Positions 10,016 through 61,305 of a stretch of DNA of 64,000 bases are shown in pieces. A model generated the notes under the pieces. That model had not been told where the DNA came from and made no database searches. It saw only the letters and a program-made list of their open reading frames with translations. Within the stretch, counting starts at the first letter, position 1, and each line of letters begins with the position of its first letter. This DNA comes from Deltaproteobacteria bacterium (GTDB taxonomy: Bacteria; JAMCPX01): the NCBI GenBank assembly GCA_023382265.1, contig JAMCPX010000025.1, forward strand, positions 1 to 64,000, given 5' to 3'. The position numbers and the translations under genes are program-made.

Positions 10016-11414
10016 AAGGTTAAGGGCAAGGATCGTACTTATTGAAGGTATGATTATAGGTATAGCCCTTTTGCTGATGGGTATTATCCTGTACGAATTA
10101 CAAAAACAAAACATGATAATACAGTTTCTTGATGATACCTCACAAATATATAACCTTGTTCAAGGAAGTATTTATTATGGTTATAACAGCGCTGAAAAGG
10201 TTGTAGAGTCTTTTCAGAACAAAACAGGGATGTCCATGGTTCAGCATATTATGCTTCTCGATCGCCGGGAAAATGTACCGGAGCATATCAAAATAAAATT
10301 CAAGCCTAAAGATATGGCATTAATAGCAAAGGATATTGATGACTGTAAAGAAGGATTTTTCCATGGATCGGGGATGAGGCTTATAAAGATATATCCAATG
10401 AACATATCAAAAACACAATGTAAGAGTCTGCTCATCACATCCAGCAACAGATATATAACAGGAAGGCTTTTATTGCTTATGGAGATTATCAGCGCCTATA
10501 TGCTGTTTAATTTTTTAATCCTCACTGCGATTGGCTGGTTTATTATAGACAGGTACACGGCTGCCCCTTTGCAGGCCCTTGAAACTGCTGTGCAGGAGAT
10601 AAGCGGCGGAGAGTATTCAGAGATAAAATACATGCCTCATTCAAAGGAGCTTGCGAACGTTATAAAAGCATTTAACGCAATGGTAAAGATTATTATGTCA
10701 AAGGAACAGATATTAAAGAACAACCTGAAAGAGCTGAAAGAAACACAGCAGTTTGCAATAAAAAAAGAAAGGCTTGCAGCCATCGGAAACCTTGCATCAG
10801 GCATATCGCACGAGATAGGCAATCCTGTAAGTGCTATCATAGCAATGCTTGAGATCCTGAAAAATGATGAGATCAAAAAGGATAAAGGGGATATGATTCA
10901 GCGGTCTTTAAATGAGGCTTACAGAATAGATGCACTTGTAAGGCAGATGCTATTATATGTAAGGCAGGCATCCGTTAACATAAGTGATGTCAATGTTAAA
11001 GCTGTTGTTAATGACGCACTTTCAGCAGCGACTTTAAATAGATCAATGGATGGAATTGACGTTTTGGTGGATGTAAACCAATCTCTAACTTACAGGATCG
11101 ATTATGAAAAACTCAGGCATATACTTATTAACCTTATATCAAATGCTTTAGATGCAATGTATGATAGGGGAAGGATTGTAATAAAGGCAGGGATTACAGC
11201 CGACGGCATCTCAATAGAGGTATCCGATACCGGAGAAGGCATAAAAGCGGATTACCTTGACAAGGTATTTGAGCCGTTTTTTACAACAAAGCCATCGGGT
11301 AAAGGCACAGGTCTTGGGCTTTCCATTGTTAAGAACCTTGTTCAGGACCTTGACGGCGATGTAACGGTAAAAAGTGAACAGGGCAAAGGAACGACGTTCA
11401 TTATAAGATTATAG
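10008..11414 (+). CDS. Membrane sensor histidine kinase (orphan)
   Basis: About 468 residues: TM1 near residues 8-28, a roughly 130-residue extracytoplasmic sensor, TM2 ending in GWFIIDRY, a HAMP linker (PLQALETAVQEISGGEY), HisKA with phospho-acceptor histidine in SGISHEIGNP, then the N box (NLISNALDAM), G1 (DTGEGI) and G2 (GTGLGLSIVK) of the ATPase. The start at 10008 gives a natural N-terminus (MIRRLRARI) and an 8-base overlap with pilD; the frame is open further upstream but inside pilD. No response regulator is adjacent. Its neighbours are pilD and pstS, so a link to pili or phosphate is possible but unproven. Confidence 0.88.
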   Translation: MIRRLRARIVLIEGMIIGIALLLMGIILYELQKQNMIIQFLDDTSQIYNLVQGSIYYGYNSAEKVVESFQNKTGMSMVQHIMLLDRRENVPEHIKIKFKPKDMALIAKDIDDCKEGFFHGSGMRLIKIYPMNISKTQCKSLLITSSNRYITGRLLLLMEIISAYMLFNFLILTAIGWFIIDRYTAAPLQALETAVQEISGGEYSEIKYMPHSKELANVIKAFNAMVKIIMSKEQILKNNLKELKETQQFAIKKERLAAIGNLASGISHEIGNPVSAIIAMLEILKNDEIKKDKGDMIQRSLNEAYRIDALVRQMLLYVRQASVNISDVNVKAVVNDALSAATLNRSMDGIDVLVDVNQSLTYRIDYEKLRHILINLISNALDAMYDRGRIVIKAGITADGISIEVSDTGEGIKADYLDKVFEPFFTTKPSGKGTGLGLSIVKNLVQDLDGDVTVKSEQGKGTTFIIRL

Positions 11415-50317: not shown

Positions 50318-51190
50318 TCAGTAAGCAATGCGGTTCCTTCCCTGTATCTTTGCTTTGTATAGTTTTTGATCTGCGATCTTAATCAACGACAATGTATCTT
50401 TTACCTCAATGAACTCATTGCATGCTACGCCTATGCTTACCGTAATGTTTATAGCTAAATCCTCATAAGTTAACGTAGAAGACGCAATGATGGTTCTTAA
50501 CCTTTCAAAAACCGATGCAGCATGGGATAAATTAAATTTATCAAGTATTACCAAAAACTCTTCTCCTCCAAATCTGCCGATATTATCGATCGGACGAAGA
50601 TGTTTGCGGAATAGATTTGAGATATATCTTAACGCTGTATCCCCTGCGATGTGTCCGTAAGTATCATTAATATTTTTAAAATGGTCGATATCAATTATTG
50701 CTATGCTAACGTACGTGTTTAAAATTAAAGCCTGGTTTACAGCTATATCCAATAAATGGGTTATATACCCTTTGTTGTATAAGCCTGTTAATTGATCTAT
50801 CCTTGCATCATTAATAATGCGTTTAATAAAATCGGAATCATACACCGGCATAAAGGATAGACAAATTGTCCCAATTGTGATAACATCACCTTCTTTCAAA
50901 TTTGCCGCATCAATTTTTTTCCCGTTTACATAAGTTCCGTTACTGCTTTTTAAATCCTTTATAGAAATATTATTATCATTTAAAATGATTACAGAATGTG
51001 CCCGTGAAACCAAAAGAGAATTTAACCTTATATCAACGTCTGCCCCTCTCCCGATAATATTTTCACCCTTTTTTACCTTAAACACGTCTCCTATCTGTTC
51101 ACCCTCAACAACAATAAGGGATGGAATATTCTCATGCGCAGCTCCGATTTGTTCTATTTTTATTAAAGATGTTTTATCTTCAGAAAACAT
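50318..51190 (-). CDS. FHA-domain diguanylate cyclase
   Basis: The 290-residue protein has an FHA phosphothreonine-binding domain (GRGADVDIRLNSLLVSRAHS, LKSSNGTYVNGKKI; residues 25-105) and a GGDEF cyclase domain with the active site GGEEF. An RPID inhibitory site lies five residues before it, so product feedback is expected. It makes c-di-GMP, probably under control of a Ser/Thr kinase seen by the FHA domain. Monocistronic; start ATG at 51190. Confidence 0.94.
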   Translation of the reverse strand: MFSEDKTSLIKIEQIGAAHENIPSLIVVEGEQIGDVFKVKKGENIIGRGADVDIRLNSLLVSRAHSVIILNDNNISIKDLKSSNGTYVNGKKIDAANLKEGDVITIGTICLSFMPVYDSDFIKRIINDARIDQLTGLYNKGYITHLLDIAVNQALILNTYVSIAIIDIDHFKNINDTYGHIAGDTALRYISNLFRKHLRPIDNIGRFGGEEFLVILDKFNLSHAASVFERLRTIIASSTLTYEDLAINITVSIGVACNEFIEVKDTLSLIKIADQKLYKAKIQGRNRIAY

Positions 51191-52183: not shown

Positions 52184-52306
52184 AAAACCATTCGCGTTTT
52201 ACTTATAACGAACAGCATCATTCAGGAAGCCCGGCATTGCATTTTTTAATTTATACAGCCTATGTAGTGTTTGACAACTATTCTTATCACCATTATTATT
52301 CTAAGT

Positions 52307-53623
52307 ATGAGAAAGGTTTATGTAGAAACTTATGGATGTCAGATGAACGAACACGACTCTGAGAGAATGCTCTCGATCTTAAAAGAGGATGGCTACGGTT
52401 ATACCGATAATCCAAAGGATGCCGATGTAATCATTATTAATACATGCAGTGTAAGGGAAAAGGCCGAGCATAAGGCTTATTCAAGCCTTGGCAGATACAT
52501 GGAACTAAAACACAGGAAGCACAATAAGGTTGTTGTTTTCAGTGGTTGTGTTGCACAGCAGGACGGTAAAGAGCTTATTAAAACATTTAAAGATGTTGAT
52601 GTTATAGTAGGCCCTTCAAATGTTCACAGGATCGGTGAGCTGATTGCACGGATCGATCATGATGGGCATGTAATAGCTACATCAGAGAACACCGGCCAAT
52701 CCAGATTTAAAAATCCGGTAAAAAACATAATCGGGATAAAAGCTTATGTTACGATCATGGAAGGATGCAATAACTTCTGTACATACTGTACCGTTCCTTA
52801 CCTGAGGGGCAGGGAGGTTAGCAGAGATGCAAGGGAGATCGTTGATGAGGTTTATGCTCTTGCCGGGTCTGGGGTTAAAGAGATTATACTGCTTGGACAG
52901 AATGTAAATTCATACACGGATCAATCAACAAGCCTTTATGAACTATTGTCCATGCTTAATGATATAAATGGCATTGAGAGAATAAGATTTATTACATCCC
53001 ATCCAAAGGATCTTACCGACAAGCTGATTAGAGCGTTTGCAGATTTTGGCAAAGTCTGTCCTCACATACATCTGCCGGTACAATCCGGTTCTGACAGGAT
53101 ACTTAAACTTATGGCAAGAGGTTATACGACAACGGATTATATAAAAAAAATTGAAAAACTAAGGAACATCAAACCGGATATAGCTATTACATCTGATTTT
53201 ATAGTAGGTTTTCCATCGGAAACCGATGATGATCACGATAGTACAATTTTATTTATAAAACAGGTATACTATGATAATATATTTTCATTTAAATACTCCG
53301 ATAGGCTCCTTGCAAAGGCGAGCCGGTTTGATAATAAGGTGGGTGATGATGATAAGGCCGGGAGATTAAAAGAACTTCATGAAACACAGTTAAGGATAAC
53401 AAAAAGTATATACAGCTCTCTTGTTAATACGGTTCAGAGAGTATTTGTGGAAGGGAAGAGTAAAAAACAGGGCAGAATGCAGGGCAGAACCGGGCATAAT
53501 AGAATTGTAAATTTTGAAGGTGCGGCAGACCCTGGTGAAGTTGTTGATGTTTTGATCAATGATTATTCAGACAATGCCCTGTACGGCAGTGTTAAAAATA
53601 AGAAGGTGAACAATGTTAATTGA
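52307..53623 (+). CDS. miaB: tRNA-2-methylthio-N6-dimethylallyladenosine synthase
   Basis: This radical-SAM methylthiotransferase acts on A37 of tRNAs. It has three auxiliary-cluster cysteines (TYGCQMNEHDS, INTCSVREKA, FSGCVAQ), the radical-SAM motif GCNNFCTYC and a C-terminal TRAM domain (VQRVFVEGKSKKQGRMQGR). The start at ATG 52307 (MRKVYVETYGCQM) fits the family; 12 further hydrophobic codons to 52271 have no similarity. It begins a tightly packed five-gene run and overlaps the next gene by 11 bases. Confidence 0.96.
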   Translation: MRKVYVETYGCQMNEHDSERMLSILKEDGYGYTDNPKDADVIIINTCSVREKAEHKAYSSLGRYMELKHRKHNKVVVFSGCVAQQDGKELIKTFKDVDVIVGPSNVHRIGELIARIDHDGHVIATSENTGQSRFKNPVKNIIGIKAYVTIMEGCNNFCTYCTVPYLRGREVSRDAREIVDEVYALAGSGVKEIILLGQNVNSYTDQSTSLYELLSMLNDINGIERIRFITSHPKDLTDKLIRAFADFGKVCPHIHLPVQSGSDRILKLMARGYTTTDYIKKIEKLRNIKPDIAITSDFIVGFPSETDDDHDSTILFIKQVYYDNIFSFKYSDRLLAKASRFDNKVGDDDKAGRLKELHETQLRITKSIYSSLVNTVQRVFVEGKSKKQGRMQGRTGHNRIVNFEGAADPGEVVDVLINDYSDNALYGSVKNKKVNNVN

Positions 53624-54119
53624 AATGAAAGTAGCGGGTGTAATGGTTGACCCTGTAAATCTGACACCAATAGTTGCACTTAAGGATAGTGAAAATAAAT
53701 ATACCTTACCTATATGGGTTGGTGTTTCTGAGGCAAGTGCTATTATGATGGAAATGGAAGGTATTAAGCCTCCCAGACCATATACACACGATCTGCTCAG
53801 GAATGTATTTAATACACTCGGTGTTATCGTTACAAAAGTAGAAATTACGGAATTAAAAGATAATACATACTATGCGATTATATTTTTAAGGGCCGGCGAC
53901 TTAAATATCTCAATCGATTCAAGGCCATCAGATGCAATAGCACTTGCACTAAGAATGGCAGCGCCCATTTTTGTTGAAAAATCGGTTATTGATAAATCAA
54001 TAGAATCCATTATTTCTGCTTCCACCGTATCGGATGTAAATCCCGAAGAAAAAAAGAAAACCTATGATGAATTATTAAAACATTTTAAGAATGCTGATTT
54101 CGGTAAGTACAAGATGTAA
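53613..54119 (+). CDS. Bifunctional nuclease family protein (DUF151)
   Basis: The 168-residue protein has the DUF151 core: LPIWVGVSEASAI, RPYTHDLLRNVFNTLG, ISIDSRPSDAIALALRMAAPIFVEKSV. Members show weak RNase/DNase activity; the biological role is unclear. It overlaps miaB by 11 bases. Widespread pairing of DUF151 with miaB suggests a link to tRNA or translation quality, which is inference. Confidence 0.92.
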   Translation: MLIEMKVAGVMVDPVNLTPIVALKDSENKYTLPIWVGVSEASAIMMEMEGIKPPRPYTHDLLRNVFNTLGVIVTKVEITELKDNTYYAIIFLRAGDLNISIDSRPSDAIALALRMAAPIFVEKSVIDKSIESIISASTVSDVNPEEKKKTYDELLKHFKNADFGKYKM

Positions 54120-54140: not shown

Positions 54141-55997
54141 ATGAATAACGGTAAAGTACTTATAGTAGAGCGGGATAGATTTTATAGAGAGCTTTATTCC
54201 GATTTACTGACGGGCATAGGTTATGAAATTTCAATAAACGATAGTTACGATATTGCTCCATCGAATTTGGAGGATTTTGATCTGATCATTTATGAACCAA
54301 ATAAACATGAAGAATCATTTACGGTTCTGACTTCCATTTTAAAGGCCCAGCCTTATAAGCCTGAAATAATGATTATAACATCGGGGGATGTGCAGAAGTA
54401 TAAAGCCATGTTTAACCCATCCGATCAGCAATACACATATATAAAGAAGCCGTTTGATGACAACAAACTGATTAATCTCGTAACGAATGCAATTTCAAAG
54501 AGGAGATTATATATAGATAAAGATAAACTTGCCCGAGAAGGTATGGAATATTTTATACTGCTCGAAGTTTATAAAAGGGCGAGTGAGATATTATCACAAA
54601 AAAGTATCGATGATGTTTTAAAAAAGCTTACAAGTGCAATGGTTATAGAGTTAAAGGCTTATAAAGCCATGATATGGTTAAGGGATGATGCAGATAACTT
54701 TAACATTGTACAGTCCTTTGGTTATGAGACAGAGCCTTATGATGAATCAACATCTTTTAACTGGAAAGGATTTAAATACAAAGTTGCATTTAACGAAGGC
54801 TACTATATTATAAAAAAAGATAGCAAAAGTGTGATGTATGTACTTATTCAGTCCAATGATGGGCATATCTATGCAATGCTCAGGTTGGTTAAAGAAGGTT
54901 TAGAAGGCTTTTCTATTCAGGATGTAAGAATTATGAGGACGCTCGCTACATTTGGAAGCATTGCTATAGCTAATGCAATAGAGCTTTCAAGTAAAATACC
55001 CGATACATTAAGAGCAGGCGATTTACCTGCCTATACGTACAAGTATTTTATAGAATACACGGAGAATGAGATTAGAAGAGCCCATAGGATGCATGGTATG
55101 TTTTCCCTATCGGTGGTATCTATAGAAAATTATAGAGAGTTGGTTGAGACATTCGGCAAAAATCACGTGAATGCTATTTTTAAAAAGATAGCCGATCTTA
55201 TGAACGAGGTTTTAAGAGATGCTGATACTCTTTCCTTATCGGAACATTCAAATATGCTTAACCTTTTTTTACCCGATACCGATTATTTCGGTTCCATTAT
55301 AACCATACGCAGAATTAAAAACCAGCTTAAGCAAAACTTATACATAACGGATGGATTAATAACAAAGAATGTGGAAATTGTAATAGGTGCTGCAACGTAT
55401 CCAGTTGACGGGACTACAGTGCAGACCCTTTTGTCAAAGGCTTATGAAAGTGCAAATAAGACTAAGTCGGGGATATTGAAGCAAGTTTCGGCAATAGAAT
55501 ACACAAGCTTTGCGGAGTTTGCCGATAAAATAATAGATAGTTTTAGTCGTATGGATAAAGATGGAAAAACCGTAAATGCCGTATTCACCCTTACTAAAGA
55601 TCGCGGGCAGGAAATCATCGATTTGATTTCATCCGACATGATCGAAAGGCCTTATATGAGAGGTATGCTGTTTGTCGGTTTACCTTTTATAACAAAGCAG
55701 ATGACGATTTTAAGAGAACAGTACAAACTTCACAACTCCAGCACAAAATTTTATATTATGGGTAAAAAAACAGTGGGTGAAGATATTGATATATCTTATG
55801 CACCCGTTATAATCATGGATGAAGATTTCGGCAATAGATATTTTATATTCAATCTTAATGAAGAATATGCGTACGGATTCGTTGCAGTAGAACAGCCTGA
55901 TAATACGTTAAAAGCTTTTCATACCAGCGAGCCGCTGCTTGTTGAGGAATTCATTGCTGTTCTTCAGGAAAAATATTTTTTGCAGAGGCAGATATAA
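54141..55997 (+). CDS. Pseudo-receiver/GAF/degenerate GGDEF multidomain regulator
   Basis: The 618-residue cytosolic protein has, in order: a receiver-like domain (1-120) with Glu52 at the phospho-acceptor position and the conserved Lys103 kept; a GAF-like domain (about 135-285); a GGDEF-like domain (about 300-450) in which the GGDEF loop reads EHSNM although the upstream RDAD remains; and a C-terminal domain (about 455-615) that could be DICT-like (FVGLPFITKQMTILREQYKL, then a strand-rich end). No domain looks catalytic. The gene abuts the next one with no spacer, so the products probably work together. Function unknown. Confidence 0.72.
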   Translation: MNNGKVLIVERDRFYRELYSDLLTGIGYEISINDSYDIAPSNLEDFDLIIYEPNKHEESFTVLTSILKAQPYKPEIMIITSGDVQKYKAMFNPSDQQYTYIKKPFDDNKLINLVTNAISKRRLYIDKDKLAREGMEYFILLEVYKRASEILSQKSIDDVLKKLTSAMVIELKAYKAMIWLRDDADNFNIVQSFGYETEPYDESTSFNWKGFKYKVAFNEGYYIIKKDSKSVMYVLIQSNDGHIYAMLRLVKEGLEGFSIQDVRIMRTLATFGSIAIANAIELSSKIPDTLRAGDLPAYTYKYFIEYTENEIRRAHRMHGMFSLSVVSIENYRELVETFGKNHVNAIFKKIADLMNEVLRDADTLSLSEHSNMLNLFLPDTDYFGSIITIRRIKNQLKQNLYITDGLITKNVEIVIGAATYPVDGTTVQTLLSKAYESANKTKSGILKQVSAIEYTSFAEFADKIIDSFSRMDKDGKTVNAVFTLTKDRGQEIIDLISSDMIERPYMRGMLFVGLPFITKQMTILREQYKLHNSSTKFYIMGKKTVGEDIDISYAPVIIMDEDFGNRYFIFNLNEEYAYGFVAVEQPDNTLKAFHTSEPLLVEEFIAVLQEKYFLQRQI

Positions 55998-57542
55998 GTG
56001 GTTAAAATAAAGGGCAAGATCCTTATAGCAGATGTAGATCAAAAATCTGTAGTCCTTATAAAGGATACCCTTAAAACTCAGGGTTTTACAGTATTTTCAG
56101 CTCTTAATGGGGCAAAGGCGCTTGAACTCATAATAGAGAACATCCCGGATATTATAATACTCAGTATGACTCTAACGATTGTAGCAACGGAGAAATTAAG
56201 GGATATTGTAAGAGCAAATCCAAACACAGATAAATTGCCTATCATATTTCTCGGGACACCGGAACAATTAAAAAAACTTAATAATTCCGGAGAAAAGATC
56301 ATCACAAAACCGTTTCGTGTCGATGAACTTATCAACTTAATATCAGGCATTTATCAAAAAAGGCAGAAGGCTATAGAATTATCAAGAGAGGATAAAGAAA
56401 TAGAAGGTAATATATCACAGATATCGTTAATCGATCTGCTCCAGATATTCAGTATGAACAAAAAAGACGGTACCATAACGATATATTCAGAAAAGAGTAA
56501 CGGGTTTATTTATCTCCAGGAAGGGAATATCATAAACGCTACTATAGGTAAAGCGGAAGGTGTAAAAGCTCTGTTCAGATTGATTGGTATAAGGGTTGGG
56601 AAGTTCGAATTTGTTCCACACCGGGCATTGACACCGACCAGAATAAATTCTACGACGGAATCGTTGCTGATGGAAGGTATGAGGCATATAGACGAAATGA
56701 ATAAACACAAGAGCGAATTACCCAGCTATGATGGAGTTGTAGCGTTGAAAAAAAAGTTATCAGACATACCGAAACAGGTGAGAACCATAACACAGGAGGT
56801 TTTATTATTGCTTGAGTTCTATTCTAATGTAGAGGATATAGTGGACAACTGTACTTTCCCCGACTACGATGTGCTAAGGGTTCTGAAGGCCCTTGTGGAG
56901 AAGGGTATCATAGAGATCAATACCAAAATATTAACGAAAGAGAAGATAAAAGAAGAAAGCCTGCTTGCAAATGAAGAGGTGTATAAGCTTCTTGAATACG
57001 TTTCTACAAACAGGCATATAAAGTTAGAGATGCATCGCGGCAGAGTGGTTATGTTACCGACAAATCATAATTCGCTTAAAATATTTTTAAATAGTATGGC
57101 AAATATGCCAAAATTTAGTTTTAGCAGCTCATTTACACGATCAGCAAAAGATGATGTTTTACTTGGTAATATTGGTTTTATTACACTTACAGATCTCCTG
57201 AGTATCGAGCTATTATCAATCCCGCCGGCGGAAGAGTACAGCCCACTATGGACTGCACTATCAGGCAGTGCTGTTGGTGCAGTAGCTATCTTTGATAAGG
57301 AATCCAGAGAGGTAATGGATTCATTTGTTAAGGCAATAGGAAAGTTTAAACAAATAGGGGGACTTCCATTTGCTTACGTATTCATTAATCCATCAACAAA
57401 GGAGCAGGGCAAAAATGCAGTGCTTGCTATAAGGAAACTTCTCGGTTTAAATAATGATGATCCTGTTTTTATAATAAATGAGTATTCAACAGAAGGGATC
57501 AAGGTGCTACCGGAACTCATAAGAAGGGTAATAAACGTATGA
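55998..57542 (+). CDS. Pseudo-receiver/PATAN (DUF4388)/pseudo-Ras GTPase protein
   Basis: The 514-residue protein has a receiver-like domain (1-120) with Ser56 in place of the phospho-Asp and Lys104 retained; a PATAN/DUF4388 domain (135-235; EGNISQISLIDLLQIFSM); a helical/winged segment (240-310); and a region (about 345-514) that follows the layout of MglA/Ras-like GTPases. The P-loop equivalent is MLPTNHNSLK (352-361), without GxxxxGK. The G3 equivalent is SIPPAEEY (407-414) and the G4 equivalent is INPSTKEQ. GTP hydrolysis is therefore unlikely. GTG start at 55998 follows the upstream stop directly, with AGAGGC before it. Confidence 0.72.
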   Translation: MVKIKGKILIADVDQKSVVLIKDTLKTQGFTVFSALNGAKALELIIENIPDIIILSMTLTIVATEKLRDIVRANPNTDKLPIIFLGTPEQLKKLNNSGEKIITKPFRVDELINLISGIYQKRQKAIELSREDKEIEGNISQISLIDLLQIFSMNKKDGTITIYSEKSNGFIYLQEGNIINATIGKAEGVKALFRLIGIRVGKFEFVPHRALTPTRINSTTESLLMEGMRHIDEMNKHKSELPSYDGVVALKKKLSDIPKQVRTITQEVLLLLEFYSNVEDIVDNCTFPDYDVLRVLKALVEKGIIEINTKILTKEKIKEESLLANEEVYKLLEYVSTNRHIKLEMHRGRVVMLPTNHNSLKIFLNSMANMPKFSFSSSFTRSAKDDVLLGNIGFITLTDLLSIELLSIPPAEEYSPLWTALSGSAVGAVAIFDKESREVMDSFVKAIGKFKQIGGLPFAYVFINPSTKEQGKNAVLAIRKLLGLNNDDPVFIINEYSTEGIKVLPELIRRVINV

Positions 57543-58201
57543 TAGATCTGCATACACATTCATTGTTCAGTGATGGTGAACTGTTACCATCGGAGCTCGT
57601 AAGGAGAGCAGAGGATATTGGGATAAAAGCTATTGCAATTACGGATCATGTTGATTTTTCAAATTTCATATTTGTAATAGAGCATATCCGGAAAGCAGCA
57701 GAGGAACTGTCTGATAGAAAAAAGACAATAAAGGTTCTTACAGGCGTTGAAATTACGCATGTACCTCCAGACGATATTCCTGCACTTATTGAACTATCAA
57801 GAAAACACGGTGCTGATATTATTGTTGTACATGGCGAAACTATAGTAGAGCCGGTAGAGCATGGAACAAATCTTGCAGCTATTAACGGCAGGGCAGATAT
57901 CCTTGCCCATCCCGGTTTTATCAGTCTGAAAGAAGCAAAACTTGCTGCAAAAAATCATGTTTATCTTGAAATAAGCGGAAGGCATGGACATAGTTTTTCA
58001 AATGGATATGTGTCTATGATTGCTCAAAAAGCACATGCAGGACTTGTGTTTAATACGGACGCACACGCCCCTTATAATCTTATGGACTATGATACGGCAC
58101 TTAAAATTGTAAGGGGAGCCGGGTTGAGTGAAAATGATTTTAAAAATATGCTTGAAAATTCAAAGAATTTAATCCGGAGAAACGGCCATGAGCTGCCGTA
58201 A
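57539..58201 (+). CDS. PHP-domain phosphoesterase
   Basis: The 220-residue protein is a bare PHP domain with the metal ligands in DLHTHSLFSDGE, AITDHVDF, GVEITH, LAHPGF and NTDAHAPYNL. Members include histidinol phosphatases and oligoribonucleases/nucleotide phosphatases. This one lacks the polymerase fused in PolX. It overlaps the pseudo-GTPase gene by four bases and ends the miaB run, so it may supply the catalytic output of that locus. Confidence 0.85.
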   Translation: MIDLHTHSLFSDGELLPSELVRRAEDIGIKAIAITDHVDFSNFIFVIEHIRKAAEELSDRKKTIKVLTGVEITHVPPDDIPALIELSRKHGADIIVVHGETIVEPVEHGTNLAAINGRADILAHPGFISLKEAKLAAKNHVYLEISGRHGHSFSNGYVSMIAQKAHAGLVFNTDAHAPYNLMDYDTALKIVRGAGLSENDFKNMLENSKNLIRRNGHELP

Positions 58202-59862: not shown

Positions 59863-61305
59863 ATGCAAACTAATATGAAAAAAGAGATTGTTTATTTTAT
59901 AAGTAATCATAAATATTTTGTTGGCTTTTTAATCATACTGACTATGCTTGAATTGCTCCCTGTTGGAACTTATACATTGCTCAATGCAGCTACATATAAG
60001 CCGCTTATGGATTTTAAACTTGCTACGCCTGCATTGAATTATATTCTTGAACCATTCATTGGTATCCCAGTATATTTAAGCACAACGCATTATATAAAAC
60101 CGGCAAGCATATCTATCTTTTCGTGGGGGCTTCTTATGGTTTTAGTCTATGGTATAATCAAGAGGCGATATAAAAAATTACCCGTTTATGTGCTGGCTTA
60201 TATAGCAGGATTTTCGATATTTATCGTGTACATACTTTTTACTCCGTTTCCATTGCTGAAAGCCATACCAAGAGATAAGTCGTTCTGTCTTATTGATCCC
60301 CATTCTCATACGTTCTATTCTCATGATGGGCTTGTTACTTTAAAGCAAAGCATTAGATATCATAAAAAACAGGGCTTTACTGGATGGTTTATTACTGAAC
60401 ATTATAACATACTTGGAGGTATCGCAGAAGAAAATATCACAAAACTGGATACCCATAAATCAATGATAGGGGAAGAGGTAAGAGTAGATCATGATCCTCA
60501 CTTCTTTCTTGCGCTCGGGATCAGTTCAACTGTTACGGCAAAAGACATCACAACGGTAACCGCACTTGCAAGGTCTGTTCATAAACAAGGTGGCGCACTC
60601 GTTCTTGCTTTGTGGTGGCTGCGTGGACCGGTGAATCTCATACATTATATAAATGATGGTGTTGATGCATTTGAAATAGCGAATGCAGGGCATAAACAGC
60701 ATCTCACAGCTTCCATAAGAGAGTATGCCTATAATATCTCTCAAAAGTACCATATACCGCTTATTGCATCCAGTGATTGGCACGGATGGGGTAATTATGC
60801 TTACACATGGACAGCTTTTAAAATACCCGGGGCAAAGGATTATACATCATATCAATTGCAGAATATCATTATTTCAATGATACGAAATAGGAATAACAAA
60901 GATATTATTCCGATTATATATGATTACCCGCATCAATACTGGGGTGTTATGAGATTTATATTTGAGCCTTTTTTCGATTTTTATTATTATTTTTCTACGC
61001 TTCCATTTAAAGGTTATATATCGTGGTTGATCTGGAGCTTTTTATTTATGATTATCTATTCGGTTTATCAGCTATACAGGGAATCTTATTATTACAAACC
61101 GGCCATTATGCCTTATGTATTATTTATTGCAGGCAGTTTGATGAGTCTTTTCTACGCGGTTCACAAGATATCAAGTATAACGTTTATACCCGTAGAGAAT
61201 ACGCTTTTGTTGACAGTTATAAGGGTTCTATTATTTTATTCGATTGGTATGCTTACAATAATGACTTTATTGCTTGCATTAACTATAAAGAAAAAAGGAG
61301 TTTAA
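59863..61305 (+). CDS. Membrane protein with embedded PHP-type domain
   Basis: The 480-residue protein has three or four helices in residues 15-135, a PHP-like metallo-domain in about 140-350 and four helices in 380-475. PHP ligands are recognisable: DPHSHTFYSHDG (the usual DLHTH reads DPHSH), ITEHYN (usual TDH), GEEVRV and SSDWHG. A hydrolase held at the membrane by helices on both sides is unusual for PHP proteins, which are mostly soluble. Start ATG at 59863 or 59875. It is followed by purS after one base, so is in the same transcript. Confidence 0.7.
   Translation: MQTNMKKEIVYFISNHKYFVGFLIILTMLELLPVGTYTLLNAATYKPLMDFKLATPALNYILEPFIGIPVYLSTTHYIKPASISIFSWGLLMVLVYGIIKRRYKKLPVYVLAYIAGFSIFIVYILFTPFPLLKAIPRDKSFCLIDPHSHTFYSHDGLVTLKQSIRYHKKQGFTGWFITEHYNILGGIAEENITKLDTHKSMIGEEVRVDHDPHFFLALGISSTVTAKDITTVTALARSVHKQGGALVLALWWLRGPVNLIHYINDGVDAFEIANAGHKQHLTASIREYAYNISQKYHIPLIASSDWHGWGNYAYTWTAFKIPGAKDYTSYQLQNIIISMIRNRNNKDIIPIIYDYPHQYWGVMRFIFEPFFDFYYYFSTLPFKGYISWLIWSFLFMIIYSVYQLYRESYYYKPAIMPYVLFIAGSLMSLFYAVHKISSITFIPVENTLLLTVIRVLLFYSIGMLTIMTLLLALTIKKKGV

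Follow-up and report, generated by a model that had tools for sequence, protein, structure and literature searches.

A conserved pair of catalytically degenerate signalling proteins, one a predicted c-di-GMP receptor, in a deltaproteobacterial contig

Two adjacent genes, here called A and B, lie in the window, a stretch of 64,000 nucleotides from a Deltaproteobacteria bacterium (assembly GCA_023382265.1, contig JAMCPX010000025.1, positions 1 to 64,000), and constitute a conserved, undescribed two-gene module built of known kinds of domain. Judged from its conserved residues, A is most likely a receptor for cyclic di-GMP (c-di-GMP), and the pair is probably a c-di-GMP-responsive switch rather than a couple of decayed enzymes. 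We give a probability of about 0.5 to the reading that A and B form a dedicated module working by ligand binding and protein contact, not by catalysis, in which A would be a c-di-GMP receptor signalling via B to an output machine. The interval examined (54141-58201) contains three open reading frames (ORFs), A, B and a gene for a PHP-family phosphoesterase; ORFs were read from the sequence and domains were assigned with Pfam at its curated cut-offs. An earlier note on this DNA, the original prediction, had described a scaffold of dead domains with the phosphoesterase as its output.

Protein A: a lost active site and a conserved I-site

Gene A (54141-55997; all features lie on the forward strand unless stated otherwise) encodes a protein of 618 amino acids in which the ORF, Pfam and an orthologue alignment delineate a pseudo-receiver, a GAF-like domain, a pseudo-GGDEF domain with an intact I-site and a C-terminal domain. 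The GGDEF fold (residues 301-442, 55041-55466) scores 48.6 bits in Pfam, above the cut-off of 23.8, and, as originally predicted, the motif at the aligned GGDEF positions reads EHSNM (residues 368-372, 55242-55256). Is this loss a peculiarity of the window copy? In an alignment that joins the 19 A proteins covering the site (10 families) to 17 canonical GGDEF domains of the family, the GG(D/E)EF motif is intact in none of the 19, and the other active-site residues are kept in two (D327), none (N335 and G369) or one (E371) of them. In contrast, R359 and D362, which form the RxxD motif of the I-site (55215-55226), are kept in 19/19, and the secondary Arg, R390 (55308-55313 for R390-R391), in 18/19, being Lys in genome G177. 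In PleD numbering, we take R391 of A to align with R390 of PleD after a one-residue insertion.

Because the active site is lost while the I-site is kept, A is read as a predicted c-di-GMP receptor. A degenerate A-site together with an intact I-site may mark such a receptor, and mutation of the I-site in PopA and SgmT (R763, D766 and R794 being the equivalents in SgmT) abolishes c-di-GMP binding (PMC3509222). The original prediction, that the system senses by binding rather than by c-di-GMP synthesis, missed the I-site kept in every A, which makes c-di-GMP the best ligand candidate. The nucleotide is probably made in the genomes with A and B, because all 15 of those tested carry other high-scoring GGDEF proteins, six of them in the window's own genome. 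Near the operon, an FHA-GGDEF protein on the reverse strand (50318-51190) has intact GGEEF and RxxD motifs and is likely an active cyclase.

The receiver (residues 6-114, 54156-54482) and GAF-like (residues 155-276, 54603-54968) domains of A score 22.1 bits (REC, cut-off 30.2) and 20.8 bits (GAF_2, cut-off 28.6) in the window copy. These weak calls are backed by the orthologues, since REC is strong there (85.8 bits in L107, 91.4 bits in L045) and GAF is equally seen. At the phospho-acceptor position, aligned to CheY, the translation gives Glu52 (54294-54296), and every one of the seven family members that can be read has Glu there. Asp is intact in the distant genomes G035, G155 and G293, and the whole domain is missing in families f108 and f139 (G283) and in G177 and G194. 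Glu in place of the phospho-Asp mimics phosphorylation in many, not all, cases, and a recent review calls the way in which pseudo-receivers work in bacteria a mystery (PMC12632262).

The C-terminal domain of A (residues 450-618, 55488-55994) is diagnostic of the A family in profile searches and has no HKD motif. None of the members scanned gave a Pfam match for it, and a sequence search of the PDB yielded nothing credible; a DICT identity was considered but dropped for want of Pfam support. An AlphaFold model of the domain (predicted local distance difference test score 80.8, predicted template modelling (TM) score 0.78) matched polyphosphate kinase, NucT, Zucchini and TrmB-type structures best in Foldseek, weakly (E-values 8.9e-5 to 2.2e-4 with query TM scores 0.42-0.50; query TM scores 0.40-0.50 among the best hits), so that a PLD/TrmB-like fold may be taken as a lead, not as a result. 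At its extreme end (residues 601-618, 55941-55994), the pattern LQxxYxLQxQ[IL] is kept in orthologues across lineages that are about 20% identical. This C-terminus is possibly a docking peptide for B.

Protein B: a degenerate receiver, a PATAN domain and a Ras-like tail

Gene B (55998-57542) encodes a protein of 514 amino acids, in which the ORF, Pfam, alignment and predicted structure distinguish a pseudo-receiver, a PATAN domain, a winged-helix-like segment and a predicted pseudo-GTPase. The receiver (residues 8-115, 56019-56342) scores 31.8 bits against the REC cut-off of 30.2, and its fold is confirmed by an AlphaFold model and Foldseek (target TM score about 0.85), with the FrzS receiver among the matches. 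Lys104 is retained. The phospho-acceptor position is Ser56 in the window (56163-56165) and Gly in seven family sequences; other lineages have Asn, Ala, Ser, Glu or Phe there, and Asp occurs in G022, G035 and G194. Both Glu52 of A and Ser56 of B had been read correctly in the original prediction. Loss of the receiver site is lineage-specific, though general in the window's family.

The PATAN domain (DUF4388; residues 136-234, 56403-56699) was also rightly recognised, with 79.1 bits in Pfam against a cut-off of 25. It is followed by the winged-helix-like segment (residues 262-308, 56781-56921), which has weak DnaD_N/TrmB matches in Pfam and is strongly conserved in distant orthologues. Tandem receiver-PATAN proteins, one of them with a Ras-like tail that has no obvious P-loop, are also encoded in a genome without A (L119:2895-5779).

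The tail of B (residues 345-514, 57030-57539) has no Pfam match of its own. Searched directly against the PDB, the B tails got no further than Arf, with an E-value of about 0.4, and therefore an intermediate GTPase profile was needed. The B profile finds stand-alone GTPases of 174-179 amino acids with an intact GPFAAGKT-type P-loop and GTPGQ, which match Ras, Arf and ATP_bind_1 in Pfam and, in G021, G308 and G169, lie directly downstream of a PATAN gene. Comparison of the B tails with these GTPases by hhalign gave a probability of 94.6 (E-value 6.5e-8). The best PDB match of the stand-alone GTPase profile is MglA (2.4e-12), and its sole match in the window's own genome is the tail of B (3.4e-6). 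The P-loop and the G3 motif, present in the stand-alone relatives, are absent in 20/20 aligned B tails. Since the profile leads to intact MglA-like GTPases while the P-loop is gone, profile comparison identifies the tail as a Ras/MglA-like pseudo-GTPase fused to PATAN, which bears out the Ras-like tail without P-loop or G3 residues proposed at first. The literature searched yielded no MglA-type pseudo-GTPase from bacteria.

At three loci (L115:3011-4179, L116:2304-3475 and L118:2637-3808), the gene for a PATAN-winged-helix protein stands directly before one for a small GTPase with its P-loop intact, so that the C-terminal half of B has a counterpart there split over two genes. One genome of the window's family encodes a further receiver-PATAN protein and, a few kilobases away, an MglA-like GTPase of canonical type with GPGLSGKTS and VPGQ (L120:1944-3623 and 10270-11091).

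Distribution, selection and gene neighbourhood

How widespread is the pair, which the original prediction proposed to seek in related genomes? A census of 386 sampled genomes, including archaeal controls, was made with profiles of the C-terminal domain of A and of the C-terminal half of B. The former found A in 21 of the 386 genomes, with B adjacent in all 21; the latter found the same 21 genomes and a few additional PATAN/GTPase matches that were shorter or weaker. The carriers span 10 GTDB families, nine of which belong to phyla other than that of the window, and B orthologues are full-length, with 64-66% identity within the family and about 30% in other phyla. No description of the pair was found in papers on DUF4388, PATAN and BFN/miaB.

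A and B are under strong purifying selection: the ratio of nonsynonymous to synonymous substitution rates (dN/dS) between family members is 0.04-0.12 for both, with similar values for the neighbouring BFN and PHP genes, and their reading frames are open wherever the copy is complete. Decay of the window copy alone is ruled out by these ratios and by seven family orthologues, in which B is about 65% identical. The original prediction would have been refuted by homologues intact at the positions that are lost in this copy alone. All orthologues from the window's family share the losses; the GGDEF domain and the Ras-like tail are dead throughout, which passes this check, and the receiver Asp is intact in the distant A and B proteins named above. 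The loss of all catalytic motifs, along with intact receivers in some distant relatives, might be taken to mean that A and B are decaying remnants of a once active two-component, diguanylate cyclase or GTPase system. This is hardly credible, as a dN/dS of about 0.05 contradicts it, and identical losses in ten families, obligate pairing and open frames speak against it. One A gene (L037:1742-3706, genome G007) contains a stretch of undetermined bases and an insert of 32 residues, which probably reflect an assembly gap, not biology.

In the window, the pair follows miaB (52271-53623, profile match and neighbourhood comparison) and a BFN/DUF151 nuclease gene (53613-54119, Pfam BFN 135.8 bits), both conserved upstream neighbours. 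B starts with GTG on the base right after the stop codon of A, and the PHP gene overlaps B by 4 nucleotides, its ATG running into the TGA of B, in agreement with the co-translation and the upstream order originally proposed. The locus had been called a four-gene one; its coordinates hold three genes, and four is correct if the BFN/DUF151 gene is counted, miaB being the fifth. The order miaB-BFN-A-B-PHP is found in families f1, f15, f139 and f158. Family f44 has miaB-A-B-PHP with BFN not detected, and in f108 a lone receiver takes the place of PHP behind miaB-BFN-A-B. In f28, f148, f169 and f222, the DNA fetched around the pair has A and B without miaB, BFN or PHP alongside. In the genomes of f108, BFN and A are separated by a small membrane ORF that by eye resembles VanZ (L105:8364-8789, L114:2596-3018), and a CsgG-like lipoprotein accompanies the lone receiver downstream of B.

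The PHP protein (57539-58201, 220 amino acids, NF004981/PRK06361) is intact, as the original prediction held: it scores 288.7 bits for NF004981 (curated cut-off 117) and 54.6 bits for Pfam PHP (cut-off 26.4), and the motifs DLHTHS, ITDH, GVEI, HGE, AHPG and DAH are preserved in an alignment of eight orthologues. We take these motifs to be the metal site, assuming the ligand roles of PHP enzymes in general. Is it then the output, of a scaffold that senses by binding something other than c-di-GMP? Besides the overlap with B, the PHP gene directly follows B in f1, f15, f44 and f139 and after a 35-nucleotide gap in f158, and the family occurs in 18 of the 21 genomes with A and B, against 66 of the 365 others (raw genome counts). 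However, these 66 make up most of the 84 genomes with the family, two archaeal controls included, so PHP has a job of its own; it lies away from the pair in f108, f169, f222 and f148 and was not found in f28 (G035). Such a scaffold would also leave the conserved I-site unexplained. PHP may share regulation with A and B but is a weak candidate for their dedicated output, and this explanation, the one originally offered, is improbable. A second PHP-domain protein of 480 amino acids with apparent membrane segments lies near but separate from the operon (59863-61305), just under the Pfam PHP cut-off.

A proposed switch and its known relatives

An outline of the proposed mechanism is as follows: c-di-GMP would bind the I-site of A, whose pseudo-receiver, with Glu at the phospho site in the family, is possibly locked in an active-like state, and the GAF and C-terminal domains may tune A by adding oligomerisation or other ligands. 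By engaging its obligate partner B, A would pass on the c-di-GMP state. The PATAN domain and MglA-like pseudo-GTPase of B would in turn attach to an output machinery, for which the apparatus of the type IV pilus or of cell polarity is the most plausible candidate. Such an output is suggestively more plausible than PHP: PilB is over its cut-off in 19 of the 21 genomes with A and B against 146 of the 365 others, and in 9 of the 10 families, counts that ignore phylogeny. For PATAN regulators in cyanobacteria, binding to the pilus motor has been shown or proposed, and a signal link to the type IV pilus has been suggested (PMC7690835).

Several observations weigh against the c-di-GMP switch. RxxD is found in 27 of the 28 canonical GGDEF domains of the genomes with A and B, so that its retention could be partly structural. 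With this background, RxxD was dropped as stand-alone proof of c-di-GMP binding, and what carries the I-site argument is its retention where the active site is lost. The REC and GAF matches of the window's A are below Pfam cut-offs, contact between A and B is suggested by gene adjacency only, and the co-occurrence of PilB with the pair could come from phylogeny alone. Might A and B be a pure structural scaffold with another partner, the I-site kept for the fold only and the signal entering through the GAF domain, a common sensor, or the C-terminal domain of A, with its weak resemblance to TrmB-type ligand-binding and PLD folds? The near-universal RxxD would fit. Yet the fold does not need RxxD, which is missing from five further GGDEF domains in the family that have motifs resembling GADEF or GGDDF and keep the fold, and the secondary Arg, kept in A, is rarer in the canonical domains (17/28). 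We therefore regard a pure scaffold as unlikely, if less so than an output through PHP.

The c-di-GMP switch may, tentatively and with the odds rather against it, be cast in its fullest form: an undescribed multi-phylum switch that has discarded phosphorylation, cyclase and GTPase chemistry altogether and relays its signal through a pseudo-GTPase mimicking MglA to type IV pilus activity or polarity. If true, it would be a new type of c-di-GMP effector in lineages known mainly from metagenomes. This compact, conserved pair unites pseudo-receiver, pseudo-cyclase and pseudo-GTPase, and since one ligand is clearly predicted for it, the question of how pseudo-receivers work becomes directly testable.

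Like A, PopA of Caulobacter and SgmT of Myxococcus combine, within one protein, receiver and/or GAF domains with a dead active site and an intact RxxD and secondary Arg (PMC3509222). A differs from them in having a further C-terminal domain, of a family of its own, and an obligate partner; moreover, SgmT is a histidine kinase, and c-di-GMP binding by A is a prediction. FrzS-type pseudo-receivers, which serve protein contact (PMC11580455), share with A and B a receiver fold without phospho-Asp, though FrzS carries a coiled coil instead of the PATAN and Ras-like domains of B. The cyanobacterial phototaxis regulators PixE, LsiR and PixG also join PATAN to a receiver (PMC7690835), whereas B has a dead receiver in front of PATAN, with a winged-helix segment and a Ras-like tail behind it. 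MglA-family GTPases, whose genes have been noted earlier near PATAN genes (PMC4316618), have the same Ras-like fold as the tail of B, which is distinguished by its fusion to PATAN and by lacking, in every genome, both the P-loop and the PGQ motif.

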